Part shown: piece after piece, positions 13,938-49,912 of the stretch
How the letters are laid out: every line of letters starts with the position of its first letter
How positions within the stretch are numbered: the first letter of the stretch is position 1
Assembly: GCA_001829315.1 (NCBI GenBank)
Contig: MIAY01000001.1
Coordinates: 262,927 to 326,926, forward strand
Length of the DNA: 64,000 nucleotides
Origin: Spirochaetes bacterium GWE1_32_154
Lineage (GTDB): Bacteria > Spirochaetota > GWE2-31-10
Direction: 5' to 3'
Made by a program: the position numbers and the translations under genes
Notes under the pieces: model-generated
Seen by the model: only the letters and a program-made list of their open reading frames with translations
Database searches by the model: none
Told to the model about the DNA's origin: nothing

Positions 13938-14480
13938 GTGGCATTAAAATCAACAATTTATAAAATCGCAATGCAAATAACTAACATGGATACTCACTAT
14001 TACGAAGACCATTCAATAACGCTTGCATCACATCCGTCAGAAAATGAAGCCAGACTAATGGTGCGTTTATTGGCGTTTGCATTAAACGCAAGTGAATCAC
14101 TCAAATTTGGTAATGGTTTATCCGACCCCAATGAAGCTGATGTGTGGGAAAAAGATTTAACCGGTGATGTAAAACTCTGGATTGATATGGGTCAACCTGA
14201 TGAAAAAACAATTCTTAAAGCATGCGGAAAATCTGAAAAAGTTAAAATATATTCATATACAAGAAGCCCCAATTTATGGTGGGATCCGATATCGACAAAA
14301 TTAACAAGAGCTAAAAACCTTACGGTGTATGCAGTTAATGCAGATTCAGTTGATGCACTTGCTCATTTGGTAGATCGCTCAATGAACCTTTTATTTTCAA
14401 TTCAGGATGGTGAAATATGGGTTCGTGATGAAAAAGAAAATAGTGTTCATGTTATAGTGGATGTGTTATATGGCGAATAA
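13938..14480 (+). CDS. yaeQ: YaeQ-family protein
   Basis: This 180-residue protein matches YaeQ in length and sequence: MALKSTIYKIAMQITNMD at the start, HPSENEARLMVRLLAFAL, a WIDMGQPDEKTI segment and the C-terminal IWVRD strand. The fold is PD-(D/E)XK nuclease-like, but no activity is established for the family. The start is GTG with AAGGAG seven bases upstream. It sits between the SDR gene and an EFR1-type flavodoxin/ferredoxin gene, whose start overlaps its end. Confidence 0.85.
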   Translation: MALKSTIYKIAMQITNMDTHYYEDHSITLASHPSENEARLMVRLLAFALNASESLKFGNGLSDPNEADVWEKDLTGDVKLWIDMGQPDEKTILKACGKSEKVKIYSYTRSPNLWWDPISTKLTRAKNLTVYAVNADSVDALAHLVDRSMNLLFSIQDGEIWVRDEKENSVHVIVDVLYGE

Positions 14481-15348
14481 AATAGCGATTATTTATTTTT
14501 CTGGAACAGGAAATACAGAACAAATTGCCAAAGAACTTGGGTATAATTTTGAGAATTCCGGTAAATCAGTCACTTTTTTTAAAGTTGAAGATTTGATTAA
14601 AAATCCGGCACAATTAATAATAAACGGGTATGAAACTATTGGATTCGGATATCCCGTTCACGCATTCGGTGTTCCGAAAATATACAAAAAACTTTTAAAA
14701 ATACTACCGCATGGAAATAATATAAAGACATTTACATTTAAAACAATGGGTGATCCATTATGTAACGGCGGTTCAAATACTGATTTAAGAAAACAATTAG
14801 CTAAAAAGGGATATGTTGTTTTTTATGAAACAATGTATGTTATGCAGGCAAATATCGGAATACGATATGAAGATGAACTAATTGAAAAATTATATTTGTT
14901 TGCAAAAGAAAAAGCTAAATATGATGTTAAAAATATTATTGAGAATAAAACAAGTCTTCTGAAAAGTGATTTTCTCACTGATGTTTTTTCAATTATATTT
15001 AATAATTCAGAACATTCAGGAAGTGCATTAATAAGTTCAACATTTTATGTTAATAAAAATTGTACTTTATGTGGTAACTGCGTAAAAATCTGCCCTGAGT
15101 TGAATATTAGAATAGAAAACAAGAAAATTAAATTCGGGTCAAACTGTACTTTTTGCATGCGATGTTTTTATGAATGTCCCAAAGATTCAATAAATACTTT
15201 TTTACCGATTAAATTAAAAGGTTTTAAATCAATACAAACTATTATTAAATCCGGCAATCTTTGTAGATCTTATTTGATTGATGAAAATAAAAATGGAATG
15301 ATTCTTAAAAGAATTAGAAAATATATGGAACGATGCAGTTTAATATAA
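14470..15348 (+). CDS. EFR1-type flavodoxin-ferredoxin fusion
   Basis: The N-terminal half is a flavodoxin domain with the FMN phosphate loop FSGTGNTE. The C-terminal half carries two [4Fe-4S] motifs, CTLCGNCVKICP and CTFCMRCFYECP. This pairing is the EFR1 family of anaerobes, thought to shuttle electrons between low-potential carriers. I chose the ATG at 14470 (MANKIAIIYFSG); an ATG at 14461 is possible. Either overlaps the end of yaeQ, which suggests translational coupling. The partner enzyme is not obvious; the upstream SDR could be served by it. Confidence 0.85.
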   Translation: MANKIAIIYFSGTGNTEQIAKELGYNFENSGKSVTFFKVEDLIKNPAQLIINGYETIGFGYPVHAFGVPKIYKKLLKILPHGNNIKTFTFKTMGDPLCNGGSNTDLRKQLAKKGYVVFYETMYVMQANIGIRYEDELIEKLYLFAKEKAKYDVKNIIENKTSLLKSDFLTDVFSIIFNNSEHSGSALISSTFYVNKNCTLCGNCVKICPELNIRIENKKIKFGSNCTFCMRCFYECPKDSINTFLPIKLKGFKSIQTIIKSGNLCRSYLIDENKNGMILKRIRKYMERCSLI

Positions 15349-43913: not shown

Positions 43914-45101
43914 ATGGATAAAAAAATATTCAATAAGAAAAGATTTTTCTTTCTAAGCATTACATTTTTCTTTTTTGTCATAATGCTTTTTTTATATCTC
44001 AATGTTTCAAATATAATGTATAACAATGCAAGTATACTTCTTGCTATAAAAGAAACCAAAAATATTAGAACTATTCTATCTTCAAGATATAATTTTGGTA
44101 AAGAAATCATCACTGACCATCAAAAAAAAGATTTAGATTTACTGCTGTCAAAATTGGAATTTTACCCGCCTAAAATGTATTTAAAAATATTTTCTGATAA
44201 TGGAAAATTAGTCTATCAGAATGGAAGAGATATTATTCTTGAGTCATCATTATCAGTTACAGAATCAAGCAGAACTAAAATTACCTATAAGAAAACGGTA
44301 ATTAAAGGGGAGCGTCAGGTTGTTTATGAAGTAATTATTCCTGTTGAAAACAGTTCAGGGAATGCTGAGTGGTTTATAAATATATTATTTGATTTACAGA
44401 TGGTTGATGATTCTTTTTTTAATGAAAAGAGATTGTTATTTCTTATTGTGTTCATTGTGAATTTATTTATTATTGTTTTTTTAATGGTTATGGTGCTTAA
44501 TTTGCAGAAAAGACTATTTATTTCTGAAAATGAGCTCTCTAATTTAACTGTTTCTGATAAACTGACGGGTTTGTTGACTAAAGATGCTTTCTTTAATGAA
44601 ATGAGAAATGAAATAGAAAGAATTGAATCAAATGGCGGTAAATTTTCTCTTATAACAGCTGATATTGATAATTTTGTAGACATCAATGAAAAATGTGGCA
44701 TTGAATTCGGTGATCATATTTTAAGAAATATTTCAACAGGGTTTAAAGAATCATTTAGAAAATTTGATTTCATTGGTAGATTTGGTGGAGACGAAATTAT
44801 TGTAATGATGATTGGAGCTAGTGAAAATGATGCAATTGTTTTATCAGAAAAATGCAGAGCTTTTATAACAGAAACAAACTTCTTTTTTGAAGGTCAACAA
44901 ATTCCTGTTACAATGAGTTTTGGTGTAGCATCAACAGAAAATATTGAACCAATAGGTAAAATATCAGAGTCGTCAAAGCGAAATAATTTTAGAAATCTCA
45001 TGTTTAATTCTTTAAATGCCTTGTCAAGAGCAAAAAGAACCGGCAAAAACACAGTTGTAAAGTATTCTGATTTATCAAATGGAAATCAATTAAATATATA
45101 A
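43914..45101 (+). CDS. membrane diguanylate cyclase
   Basis: The 395-residue protein has a membrane helix at 11-30, an extracytoplasmic sensor region (31-170), a second helix at 173-196 and a GGDEF domain. The active-site signature is GGDEI at 291-295, with Ile in place of Phe. The I-site RxxD (Arg282, Asp285) is five residues upstream, so product inhibition by c-di-GMP is expected. The LTGLLTKDAFF and DIDNFVDINEKCG motifs are present. Its 3' end overlaps the convergent MBL gene by 16 bp. Confidence 0.88.
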   Translation: MDKKIFNKKRFFFLSITFFFFVIMLFLYLNVSNIMYNNASILLAIKETKNIRTILSSRYNFGKEIITDHQKKDLDLLLSKLEFYPPKMYLKIFSDNGKLVYQNGRDIILESSLSVTESSRTKITYKKTVIKGERQVVYEVIIPVENSSGNAEWFINILFDLQMVDDSFFNEKRLLFLIVFIVNLFIIVFLMVMVLNLQKRLFISENELSNLTVSDKLTGLLTKDAFFNEMRNEIERIESNGGKFSLITADIDNFVDINEKCGIEFGDHILRNISTGFKESFRKFDFIGRFGGDEIIVMMIGASENDAIVLSEKCRAFITETNFFFEGQQIPVTMSFGVASTENIEPIGKISESSKRNNFRNLMFNSLNALSRAKRTGKNTVVKYSDLSNGNQLNI

Positions 45102-45931
45102 TAACAACCTTGTCGTGCGAAACCGGCAAAACCATTATCCCGCGGGTGAAAGTTTTTATAATTATCACCATAATGACAAAGGTTAATCATTTTCTTAATT
45201 TCAGGATCAAGTGTGCTTAATTCCTGAAAGGAAGCGTGAACGCCACCCGGAAAGAATTGACAGTCGTGGAAAATATGCTCAATAGTAGGATAATCTTTTA
45301 AAAGCCAGTTTATTAAATCAATATCGAATCGTGTATCAGAAGAAAAGATCACTCTATTATCAACTAAAATTCCATACGACAATGAAGAATCACTCCATGA
45401 TTTTGCTGAATCAGGAATGTGCATTGTTCTGTATAATTTAATATTAATTGAACCTGCATTTATTTCATATAATGGTCGAGGCGATTTAGATATCATTTCA
45501 GGTTTTATCTGGTTAAAAAAATGGTGATATTCAAGGGGTTTTCCTTCATAAATTTCACCAAAAGCGAGACCTCCTTTTAATGAACTGTTCCATAAAAGGT
45601 CTTTATATTCATCAGTAATAATCATGTTTGGACGTTTTTTTGTAACATAACGCCCCATGAGGGCTGATTCCTCAAGACCACCAATATGATCGGCGTGAGA
45701 ATGGGTAATAAGAAAATTTGATATATTAATAATTGATGATTTATAATTATGTAATGCTGTCGGGCAGACAGTGCCACAATCGATAAGGACGTGATCCTGA
45801 CCTTTTATAATAAGAAGATTAGTCTGATAATGTAATTTGGAAAATGCAGACCCTATCCCCAGAAAGAAAAAAGTGAGCTTACCATCATTTGTAAGCTCTA
45901 ATGGTTTATCTTTTAAATAGTTTTTTTCCAT
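45086..45931 (-). CDS. MBL-fold metallo-hydrolase
   Basis: The 281-residue protein has the metallo-beta-lactamase fold, with metal ligands THSHADHIGG, MHIPDSAKS, SSDTRFD and a late His in LCHYGDN. It resembles RNase Z/phosphodiesterase-like members, but the substrate cannot be told. It converges on and overlaps the end of the diguanylate cyclase gene, so a link to cyclic-nucleotide turnover is possible but unsupported. Confidence 0.82.
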   Translation of the reverse strand: MEKNYLKDKPLELTNDGKLTFFFLGIGSAFSKLHYQTNLLIIKGQDHVLIDCGTVCPTALHNYKSSIINISNFLITHSHADHIGGLEESALMGRYVTKKRPNMIITDEYKDLLWNSSLKGGLAFGEIYEGKPLEYHHFFNQIKPEMISKSPRPLYEINAGSINIKLYRTMHIPDSAKSWSDSSLSYGILVDNRVIFSSDTRFDIDLINWLLKDYPTIEHIFHDCQFFPGGVHASFQELSTLDPEIKKMINLCHYGDNYKNFHPRDNGFAGFARQGCYYIFN

Positions 45932-46004: not shown

Positions 46005-46439
46005 TTACAATTCAGTTATTATTTTATCGGCAGAAACTAAAGTTATATTATTTTTTTCAGCAATATTTATTGCTTTATCAAGTTCGTCAATTTTAAAAAT
46101 CATAATCGCATTGCTATGTTTTTTTTCAACGAAAGCATAAGCGTACTCAATATTAATATTATTTGTATCAAAAATTTCAAGTATACTATTAAGGCCACCG
46201 GGAACATCTGGAACTTCAACAGCGAGGATATCAGTTTTATCACAAACAAAATCATTGTTTTTTAATATAGCGATTGCTTTATCGGTAGAATCAACTAACA
46301 TTCTTACAATACCATAGTTTTCTGTTTCTGCGATGCACAATGAACGAATATTAATATTTTGTTCTGCTAACACTTTTGTAACAGTAGCAAGACGACCTTT
46401 TTTATTACCGAGAAAAACGGATATTTGAGTAATTTTCAT
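46005..46439 (-). CDS. tandem ACT-domain protein
   Basis: The 144-residue protein contains two ACT domains: residues 1-70 (ITQISVFLGNKKGRLATV) and 71-144 (ILAVEVPDVPGGLNSILE). Such proteins bind amino acids and are regularly encoded beside phenylacetate-CoA ligase and indolepyruvate:ferredoxin oxidoreductase in anaerobes. It is the last gene of the ior-paaK cluster and probably senses an aromatic or branched amino acid. Confidence 0.9.
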   Translation of the reverse strand: MKITQISVFLGNKKGRLATVTKVLAEQNINIRSLCIAETENYGIVRMLVDSTDKAIAILKNNDFVCDKTDILAVEVPDVPGGLNSILEIFDTNNINIEYAYAFVEKKHSNAIMIFKIDELDKAINIAEKNNITLVSADKIITEL

Positions 46440-46449
46440 TCAGTTCTCC

Positions 46450-47748
46450 TTATATTATTCTTTTATCAATAATTCTTTTTGCTTTTCCTTCGCTTCTCGG
46501 AATTGTTTTAGGTTCAACAAGTGTTACTTTTGTATGAATATTCAACATTGCATATAAATCTTTTTCAATTCGCTTTTCAGTATGTGAAAGGTTCTTAATT
46601 TCATCAGAGAAAAGTTTATTACTCATTTCAACCTGAACTTCAAGAATATCAAGCTGGTCTTTTCTTTCAATAATTAATTGGTAATGAGGTTCTACACCTT
46701 CAATTTTAAGTAGAATCTCTTCAATTTGTGATGGAAATACATTAACCCCGCGAATTATTATCATATCATCTGTTCTTCCCATAAGTCTATGCATTCTTGC
46801 ACTTGTTCGTCCGCATTTACATGGTTCACGGGTGATAAATGTTATATCTCTTGTACGGTAACGTATAACCGGAGTGCCTTCTTTTGTAAGTGTTGTAAAA
46901 ACGAGTTCTCCCTTTTCACCATCGGGAAGTTGTTTACCTGTTTCTGGGTCTATTATTTCAGCATAAAAATGATCTTCTGCAATATGAAGCATATCCTGAT
47001 ATTCACATTCACACGCTACTCCCGGTCCGATAATTTCGGTTAATCCATAAATATCCAATGCTTTGAGATTGAGTTTTGATTCAATTTCAGTCCGCATACT
47101 TTCACTCCACGGCTCTGCACCGAAAAAACCTACTTTCAGATTTAATTGTGAAAAATCAATTCCCTGCTCTTTTGCTGATTCTGCAAGGTATAATGAATAT
47201 GAAGGAGTGCATGTTAAAACTTCGGGTTTAAAATCCTGTAGAATTGAAAGTTGTTTCATCGTATTTCCACCGGAAATCGGAATGATAGTTGCACCAATTT
47301 CTTTTGCCCCATAATGAACACCAAGACCGCCGGTAAAAAGGCCATATCCGTAAGCATTTTGAATAGAATATTCATTTGTGACTCCGCCCATTGCTAAAGC
47401 CCTCGCCATAACTTCGGACCAGATTTTAAGATCTTTGTTTGTATACCCGACAACGACTGATTTCCCGGTTGTTCCGCTTGACATGTGAAGCTCTTCGATT
47501 TCCTTCATATCAACGGCAAATAAACCAAACGGATATACATCGCGCATATCCATTTTTGATATAAAAGGTAATTTGACAATATCATCGATACTTTTGATGT
47601 CTTCCGGTTTAACCCCGGCAGTAATCATTTTTTCTCTATAAAATTCTACATTAGTATACATTCGATTAACGAGTGAAATGAGGTTTTTACTTTGTAAACT
47701 CCGCAATTCTTTTAAAGGCATCTTTTCAGCTTTTTCATTCCAAATCAT
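46450..47748 (-). CDS. paaK: phenylacetate-CoA ligase family enzyme
   Basis: The 432-residue adenylate-forming enzyme has the P-loop [12 protein letters not shown], the [10 protein letters not shown] motif and the hinge region [16 protein letters not shown]. In anaerobes with IOR it probably interconverts arylacetyl-CoA and arylacetate, which conserves ATP during aromatic amino acid fermentation when run in reverse; that role is inferred from the neighbours. The ACT gene follows after 10 bp and iorB precedes by 15 bp. Confidence 0.92.
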
Positions 47749-47763
47749 AATGATTTTCCTTGT

Positions 47764-48324
47764 TTAATAATTTTTTCCGGCATTAAAAGCTTCGAGGTTT
47801 TTATCGAATGTGCCTTCAGGTACCAAAGATTTAATTGCTTTATTCCAGCAATCATCAGGAATTTGAATAAATTTTGAGAGAACCCCAAGCAGAAAAATAT
47901 TAAGAAATTTTTCATTACCAAGTTTTTCTGTATATTTCTTTGGGTCGATTGCTATTGTATTCGTAAGTTTTGCTGAAATCTCAGAAACAATTCCTTCCGG
48001 ATAAACAGTAACGTTTGCAGGGAAAATTCTATTAGTTAGTATAATAACTTTTGAATCTTTATTTAAATAATCAAGCCATCGCGCTGTTTCCATTTCTTCG
48101 AGTGAAATAAGAACGTCAACTTCACCTAAAGGTATAACTGGTGATGAAACAGTCTTACCAAAACGAACGTGACTGAAAACAGACCCGCCTCTTTGACTCA
48201 TACCGTGAATTTCGCTTTTTTTTACATCAAGTCCTGCATTCATTGCTGCATAACTCACAACATTACTTGCAAGAATTGTTCCTTGACCCCCAACACCGAC
48301 AATTAATATATTCGTAACTTTCAA
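47764..48324 (-). CDS. iorB: indolepyruvate:ferredoxin oxidoreductase, beta (gamma-type) subunit
   Basis: The 186-residue subunit carries the 2-oxoacid:acceptor oxidoreductase gamma domain: ILIVGVGGQGTILASNVVSY and SEIHGMSQRGGSVFSHVRFG. Start is TTG, with AAGGAG six bases upstream. It lies 10 bp after iorA. Together they oxidise aryl pyruvates to arylacetyl-CoA with CoA and a low-potential acceptor. Confidence 0.93.
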   Translation of the reverse strand: MKVTNILIVGVGGQGTILASNVVSYAAMNAGLDVKKSEIHGMSQRGGSVFSHVRFGKTVSSPVIPLGEVDVLISLEEMETARWLDYLNKDSKVIILTNRIFPANVTVYPEGIVSEISAKLTNTIAIDPKKYTEKLGNEKFLNIFLLGVLSKFIQIPDDCWNKAIKSLVPEGTFDKNLEAFNAGKNY

Positions 48325-48334
48325 AATCGTCTCC

Positions 48335-49912
48335 TTATTGTTTCTTGCTCTTTTTTTTGTTGTAAATTATACATAAACCTTTAACTAAGAGAACAGAAAG
48401 TTTTTTAGTTGCTAAAAGTTTTTTTATAGCACTTTCAATTTCAGCAGGTTTGTATGCGTTAACTTCAATGAAGTTTTCATCGGATATTCCGACAGCTTTG
48501 CAAAGATGATAGTAATTTACCGGTTCTGCGGGTAATGATTGAATTGTTTCGCCTGAGAAAGGGTTTGGTTGCATACCCGTCATTGCTGTAGTACCGTTAT
48601 CAAGAATGATAATTAAATTTTTTCTTCCATTATATGCAGCATTAACAAGACCTGTAATGCCGGAATGAGCAAATGTCGAATCACCGATTATTGCTGCGTA
48701 TGTTTTAGATGGATCTGTTAATTCTAAACCCTGGGCAACAGTGATACTTCCACCCATATCAACACAGGTGTCAATGCCGTTGTAAGGTGGTAACACACCA
48801 AGAGTGTAGCATCCAATATCACCTGCGACTGTTATGTTCATTTTACCTAATGTCTCATATACAAATGAGTGAGGGCAACCTTTACATAATGCCGGTGGTC
48901 GCGGAGGGACTTTAGAATTTATAGTAAGAGGCGTTTCTTTTTGTTTCCCGAGAAAATTGCTGATAGAATCAGGTGATAATTCACCGGTAATAGGAAATAC
49001 ATTTTTGCCGGTAACCGATATACCCATCGCTTTAATTCTGGTTTCAAAGAACGGTTCAAGTTCTTCAACAATAACGACTTTTTTTACTTTACTGCAGAAT
49101 TCTTTGATTAGTTTCTCAGGCAAAGGATACACCATTCCCAATTTTAAAATGGATGCATCGGGTGCAGCTTCTTTCACATAGTGATATGAAATGCCTGATG
49201 TTATATAACCGACATCAGTATTATTATATTCAGTTTTATTAATTGACAAGGTATTTGCGTCTTCTTTTATTAAATTCTCTCTATCTTCAACAATGAAATG
49301 TCTGGCTCGTGCGTAGGCAGGAATCATAACATATTTTTTTAGGTTTCTTTCAAATCTGCCTTTATCTATTTCAACCCGTTTATCTTTGTTTTTATCGACA
49401 TTAACAATGCTGTATGCATGGCAAACCCGTGTAGTAGGCCTTAAAAACACCGGGGTATCATATTTTTCACTTAGCTCAAATGCAAGTTTTGTGAAACTTC
49501 GTGCTTCTTCAGAATCAGATGGTTCTAACATAGGAATTTTAGCCGCATACGCGTAATTTCTATTATCCTGTTCATTTTGTGATGAATGCATAAACGGGTC
49601 ATCAGCACTAATAATTACTAAACCACCTTTTACGCCCATATATGAAACGGTAAATAAAGGGTCAGCCGCCACATTAACACCGACATGTTTCATAGTTACC
49701 AGTGTTCTTGCACCGCCGAGTGATGCTCCGATACCAACTTCAAGTGCAACTTTTTCATTAACAGACCATTCAGTATACACATCTTTGTGTTCTTTAAGAT
49801 TTTCAAGTATTTCTGTAGATGGAGTGCCCGGATAACCAACTCCGACTTTTACCCCTGCTTCATACGCGCCAAGAGCAATTGCTTCATTTCCGGAAAGAAG
49901 TAAAGTTTCCAT
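48335..49912 (-). CDS. iorA: indolepyruvate:ferredoxin oxidoreductase, alpha subunit lacking the ferredoxin domain
   Basis: The 525-residue subunit has the N-terminal pyrimidine-binding domain (LLSGNEAIALGAYEAGVKVG ... GYPGTPSTEIL), a middle transketolase C-like domain and the TPP domain (LCKGCPHSF, MGGSITVAQG, IIGDSTFAHSG). IorA normally continues for about 60 residues after the AKGPC-like strand with a ferredoxin domain holding two [4Fe-4S] clusters. Here it stops at VKGLCIIYNKKKSKKQ. The stop is followed at once by the iorB ribosome site, with no cysteine-rich remnant. Confidence 0.9.
   Translation of the reverse strand: METLLLSGNEAIALGAYEAGVKVGVGYPGTPSTEILENLKEHKDVYTEWSVNEKVALEVGIGASLGGARTLVTMKHVGVNVAADPLFTVSYMGVKGGLVIISADDPFMHSSQNEQDNRNYAYAAKIPMLEPSDSEEARSFTKLAFELSEKYDTPVFLRPTTRVCHAYSIVNVDKNKDKRVEIDKGRFERNLKKYVMIPAYARARHFIVEDRENLIKEDANTLSINKTEYNNTDVGYITSGISYHYVKEAAPDASILKLGMVYPLPEKLIKEFCSKVKKVVIVEELEPFFETRIKAMGISVTGKNVFPITGELSPDSISNFLGKQKETPLTINSKVPPRPPALCKGCPHSFVYETLGKMNITVAGDIGCYTLGVLPPYNGIDTCVDMGGSITVAQGLELTDPSKTYAAIIGDSTFAHSGITGLVNAAYNGRKNLIIILDNGTTAMTGMQPNPFSGETIQSLPAEPVNYYHLCKAVGISDENFIEVNAYKPAEIESAIKKLLATKKLSVLLVKGLCIIYNKKKSKKQ

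Follow-up and report, generated by a model that had tools for sequence, protein, structure and literature searches.

The window, a 64,000-nt stretch of contig MIAY01000001.1 of Spirochaetes bacterium GWE1_32_154, carries a contiguous set of four genes, iorA-iorB-paaK-ACT, all on the minus strand (Table 1). The iorA frame opens with an ATG, and its product combines the Pfam domains POR_N and TPP_enzyme_C in one chain with iorB adjacent; the genome contains one copy of iorB, the one that adjoins iorA. The indolepyruvate/arylpyruvate specificity that we give to IorAB is presumed from two things, its family and the neighbouring ligase. The iorB product scored 227.6 bits against NF005325, just below the cut-off of 230, and the paaK-like ligase scored 575.6 bits against TIGR02155, below the cut-off of 646.3. 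A scan for promoters and terminators gave counts near those obtained with shuffles. Downstream of the ior cluster, at 45086-45931 on the minus strand, lies a gene for a metallo-beta-lactamase-fold protein, the best Pfam match of which is Anti-Pycsar_Apyc1 (117.2 bits, cut-off 50).

Table 1. Features of the ior locus, in coordinates of the window.
Feature	Position	Strand	Description	Family or domain match
iorA	48335..49912	minus	525 aa, ferredoxin-domain-free; putative alpha subunit of indolepyruvate/arylpyruvate:ferredoxin oxidoreductase	TIGR03336, POR_N, TPP_enzyme_C
Cys343-x-x-Cys346 (CKGC)	48875..48886	minus	first two predicted ligand positions of the proximal [4Fe-4S] site	CXGC motif
Cys368	48809..48811	minus	third predicted ligand position	phmmer pairs it with residue 46 of 5b48_B
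Cys514	48371..48373	minus	fourth predicted ligand position, 11 residues from the C-terminus	phmmer pairs it with residue 197 of 5b48_B
C-terminal basic tail and stop	48335..48370	minus	11 residues after Cys514, net charge +5, in place of the ferredoxin domain	
iorB	47764..48324	minus	putative beta subunit, 186 aa, TTG start	Pfam POR, 121.8 bits
paaK-like gene	46450..47748	minus	putative AMP-forming arylacetate-CoA ligase, 432 aa	AMP-binding, AMP-binding_C_2
ACT-domain pair protein	46005..46439	minus	144 aa, possible amino-acid sensor	Pfam ACT_8, 77.5 bits

The iorA product was matched by TIGR03336, the NCBIfam model for IorA, at 611.7 bits, with residues 5-524 lying on model positions 4-541 of 595. 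The score falls short of the curated cut-off of 650.9 bits because the end of the model, the ferredoxin domain, is missing from the protein, which is therefore not called under the equivalog rule. A Pfam search found no Fer4 family in the product at E ≤ 0.001. The coding-strand junction reads ...AAACAATAA GGAGACGATT TTG AAA GTT, which is the TAA stop of iorA, a ribosome-binding-site-like GGAG directly behind it and the TTG start of iorB (48324), in this order. As iorB begins 10 nt after the iorA stop, a ferredoxin relic would not fit in between. No ferredoxin domain is present between the stop and iorB in any frame, and the iorA reading frame beyond the stop contains more stops and has no ferredoxin likeness. 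The initial annotation had placed the end of the protein right where the ferredoxin domain should start, with no relic of it, and both points are borne out: the IorA at 48335-49912 is confirmed to end cleanly without the C-terminal 2[4Fe-4S] domain.

In order to place this protein among its relatives, we gathered 29 loci from related genomes (family model, 60 genomes searched) and 80 by similarity, in addition to the window copy. The alignment had 111 rows, window included, of which five were set aside and 106 classified. Set aside were a full-length IorA interrupted by a frameshift (L061), two rows that reach a contig end (L103 and L033), a row with a masked stretch (L041) and the window itself again (L001). 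The truncated group comprises 26 of the 106 rows, the window among them, with 4-34 residues after the last conserved Cys and not a single Cys in this segment. The full-length group (80 of 106) has tails of 63-113 residues after the same Cys, with at least eight tail Cys in 79 of its rows; the exception, L098, is ended by its contig. The relatives' loci divide into 18 truncated, 10 full-length and one broken, and the similarity-search loci into seven truncated, 70 full-length and three set aside. Hence the truncation, which the initial annotation had proposed to look for in relatives, recurs in 25 other loci that all lack the C-terminal 2[4Fe-4S] ferredoxin domain, and with the same end point in so many places it is not a sequencing fault. 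Furthermore, the window IorA is 71-72% identical to its counterparts in two genomes from its own family, both truncated, so the truncated form is maintained.

The history of this form was approached with two trees, both unrooted and built with no outgroup from a sample biased to the query, so that loss and gain of the domain carry no direction in them. For the first tree, nine rows were dropped (the five set-aside rows and four partial ones), leaving 102. The window falls in a 15-row clade that is entirely truncated, with an SH-aLRT support of 100 in this tree and 99 in a reduced one. Its rows come from Spirochaetota, Lentisphaerota and Actinomycetota, and its named members are Spirochaetales, Lentisphaeria and Actinomycetales/Propionibacteriaceae MAGs. 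The first tree placed the other truncated rows elsewhere and needed five changes, at least three of them forced by well-supported branches. In the reduced tree of 55 rows, from which the long rows L032 and L034 and two thirds of the full-length rows of the similarity search had been removed, two changes suffice and a single truncated clade is not rejected (p-AU 0.606). For this reason we do not claim several independent losses of the ferredoxin domain; judging from these sequences, a single old subfamily of truncated IorA is possible. Four Actinomycetota rows of the truncated clade (L040, L042, L045 and L058) have Cys-free tails of 33-34 residues, as compared to 4-20 in the others. Three relatives (G043, G046 and G053) have two IorA-like genes each; in the G046 pair one IorA is truncated and the other reaches the end of the model, which makes it a natural pair to compare.

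The four Cys residues of the proximal cluster site, C343, C346, C368 and C514, are invariant in all 26 truncated and all 80 full-length rows, along with the motifs around the TPP site, and again in 18 of 18 truncated rows of a separate alignment. The window IorA has eight Cys residues, and the remaining four vary among the rows. The phmmer partner 5b48_B, whose residues we numbered by counting along the alignment, is the beta chain of the single-cluster S. tokodaii OFOR, and we take its Cys46 and Cys197 to be further cluster ligands in that enzyme. The phmmer alignments start downstream of C343 and C346, which were assigned only from their position and their fit to CXGC. In enzymes of the OFOR family, the proximal cluster is bound by this motif (PMC5020499). 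At the level of sequence, the window IorA thereby has the architecture of a single-cluster OFOR, in which the proximal-cluster Cys are kept and an internal ferredoxin domain is absent, and the site formed by the four residues would be occupied by a single [4Fe-4S] cluster.

A structure model built from the 18 truncated sequences had a mean pLDDT of 80.3 and a pTM of 0.84, and its confidence was low at residues 306-341 and 370-375, which adjoin the cluster site. Model residues 1-311, a part that excludes the cluster domain, match OFOR alpha chains: 6n2n_A with Z of 32.0 (rmsd 3.0 over 303 residues), 5b46_A with Z of 30.8 (rmsd 3.3 over 307), and 4wbx, 5c4i_A and 5b48_C with Z of 30.7, 30.4 and 30.1, respectively, where entries less than 1 apart are to be read as tied. 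The model thus shows an OFOR-type fold for the N-terminal part of IorA. PFOR chains align with nearly the whole length of the model (1-525), with an rmsd near 18. A structure search with the N-terminal part alone returned nothing beyond the whole-model result, and no IorA chain was found when the PDB was searched by sequence.

The explanation that we consider very probable is that the locus encodes a functional IorA from a subfamily that lacks the ferredoxin domain, in which electrons from an arylpyruvate on TPP would travel through one proximal [4Fe-4S] cluster to a soluble ferredoxin. IorA and IorB would together form an arylpyruvate:ferredoxin oxidoreductase. The arylpyruvate would be decarboxylated on TPP in the C-terminal TPP domain of IorA, and electrons would pass singly to the cluster coordinated by C343, C346, C368 and C514. 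A soluble ferredoxin, docked at the place that the tethered domain occupies in full-length relatives, would then take them up directly from this cluster. We infer this route because the Cys residues are kept and because characterised cousins work in this way. The initial annotation had argued that electrons from TPP would need another route. This is right insofar as the tethered domain is absent, but the four proximal-site Cys are kept, and therefore electrons leaving TPP still find a first acceptor in the protein.

A bolder form of this explanation, which we regard as unlikely, has one ancient and widely spread ferredoxin-domain-free subfamily tuned for the reductive carboxylation of arylacetyl-CoA, with the basic tail as a docking strip. 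If true, the loss of the tethered ferredoxin would expose the proximal cluster directly to a low-potential ferredoxin. Over the 12 residues that follow C514, the mean net charge is +3.3 in the 26 truncated rows vs. +2.2 in the 80 full-length rows, a weak difference with a p of 0.010 that treats the rows as unrelated and is uncorrected for kinship. As the charge difference is weak, the docking strip was rejected as the main reading.

The soluble partner is likely to be a general 2[4Fe-4S] ferredoxin encoded elsewhere in the genome, which is 97.6% complete. All 36 matches of PF12838 in this genome were listed, and the 30 loci that were motif-scanned have clusters of the form C-x2-C-x2-C-x3-C and differ in this from IorA tails, in which the first cluster has x4. 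Small ferredoxin frames occur at C3:31966 (72 aa), C1:226818 (105 aa) and C29:20375 (111 aa), the first two of which are stand-alone 2[4Fe-4S] ferredoxins. Rnf is also encoded (RnfC, 519.7 bits). A 295-aa protein encoded at 14461-15348 on the plus strand of the window has a flavodoxin-like start (a weak match, below the cut-off) and a C-terminal 2[4Fe-4S] region, and is a candidate electron carrier with no evident link to ior.

Alternatively, a dedicated subunit could provide the ferredoxin domain in trans, like delta in four-subunit 2-oxoacid oxidoreductases. Separate ferredoxin-like subunits are known in the superfamily, HpdD of C. scatologenes being one described in PMC13285125, and the two stand-alone ferredoxins could be thought of in such a role. 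However, a profile of 14 IorA ferredoxin domains detected no detached domain of this type in the window genome. Its best match there, inside a 612-aa frame, was 43.8 bits, and the 72-aa ferredoxin frame scored 33.6 bits, whereas three control genomes that encode full-length IorA reached 88.1-92.8 bits. Nor was a ferredoxin gene retained beside a truncated ior in a motif scan of the flanking ORFs of the 29 loci then labelled truncated, a scan that covered about 1.5 kb or less for the relatives' loci and up to 4 kb for others and would miss genes lying farther away. Two ferredoxin-like ORFs were rejected: the one near L061 is the tail of a full-length IorA, displaced to another frame, and the one at L038 has no Pfam match. 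The initial annotation had offered a separate small ferredoxin as a possibility. A dedicated one adjacent to ior found no support in these flanks, nor did a detached IorA-type domain in the genome, and we consider a dedicated subunit quite improbable, although a diverged one might lie elsewhere in the genome.

It is also conceivable that this IorA is a non-redox or degenerate protein, a TPP decarboxylase or a pseudoenzyme, and simple TPP decarboxylases do score high in fold searches: among the Foldseek matches listed they form the majority, with one OFOR chain at rank 1. The invariance of the four cluster Cys and of the TPP-site motifs and the retention of iorB nevertheless make this very doubtful. 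An assembly error or a recent frameshift that removed the domain has a real precedent in L061, the tail of which continues in another frame, but is refuted here by independent genomes with the same end and by an iorB start and ribosome-binding site so close to the stop, and its probability is practically negligible.

The AMP-forming ligase and the ACT-domain neighbours suggest, by analogy, that the ior set of the window can work in the reverse, biosynthetic direction, in which salvaged arylacetates would be converted to arylpyruvates and so serve aromatic amino acids. In Bacteroides, according to PMC13285125, an AMP-forming arylacetate-CoA ligase accompanies IOR, and that paper argues in favour of the biosynthetic direction; what the two loci have in common is the gene neighbourhood of ior and ligase. 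The paaK gene was present in the scanned flanks of 18 of the 29 loci labelled truncated vs. 46 of the 81 labelled full-length, and since it lies near both forms of IorA it does not distinguish the truncated one. In three genomes of the same order (G005, G006 and G007), the truncated iorA (L023, L024 and L036) has no iorB directly downstream; iorB is about 8 kb away on the other strand of the same contig in G005 and on a different contig in G006 and G007. This separation counts against the preferred explanation, that of a working two-subunit enzyme with a soluble ferredoxin.

In the standard picture and in the curated model TIGR03336, IorA includes the ferredoxin domain. We find that IorA can do without this domain in several phyla but strictly retains the proximal cluster site, and this separates the needs of the chemistry, the proximal cluster, from the means of electron hand-over, the tethered domain. 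In practice, the curated cut-off of TIGR03336 misses iorA genes free of the domain. Natural pairs of enzymes with and without it would make its contribution to rate, direction and choice of ferredoxin testable. A literature search, outside which most subscription papers lay, found no paper describing an IorA that lacks the ferredoxin domain, and the accessible part of PMC11304471 contains nothing on domain content.

The window proteins follow the same two-subunit plan as the full-length archaeal and bacterial IorA/IorB of TIGR03336, with POR_N and TPP domains in IorA and POR in IorB, and all four proximal-cluster Cys are common to both. Unlike those proteins, the window IorA has no C-terminal 2[4Fe-4S] domain and scores below the curated cut-off. 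In the absence of an intramolecular ferredoxin domain and in the OFOR fold of the alpha part it resembles the Magnetococcus OGOR 6n2n, which we take to be a single-cluster enzyme. It shares these two features, as well as the proximal-cluster Cys, with S. tokodaii StOFOR1/2, which, according to PMC5020499, contain just one [4Fe-4S] cluster, equivalent to the proximal one, lack an intramolecular ferredoxin domain and have a large pocket in which a docking model placed the cognate external ferredoxin. More single-cluster enzymes from archaea and bacteria are listed there. The single-cluster OFORs belong to another sequence family and have their subunits arranged differently: the alpha chain of StOFOR is a fusion of the gamma, POR and pyrimidine domains, and the TPP domain forms the beta chain, whereas IorA has POR_N and TPP in one chain. 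In summary, IorA without a ferredoxin domain is a real and widespread architectural variant, the working mode of which is already understood in the superfamily.
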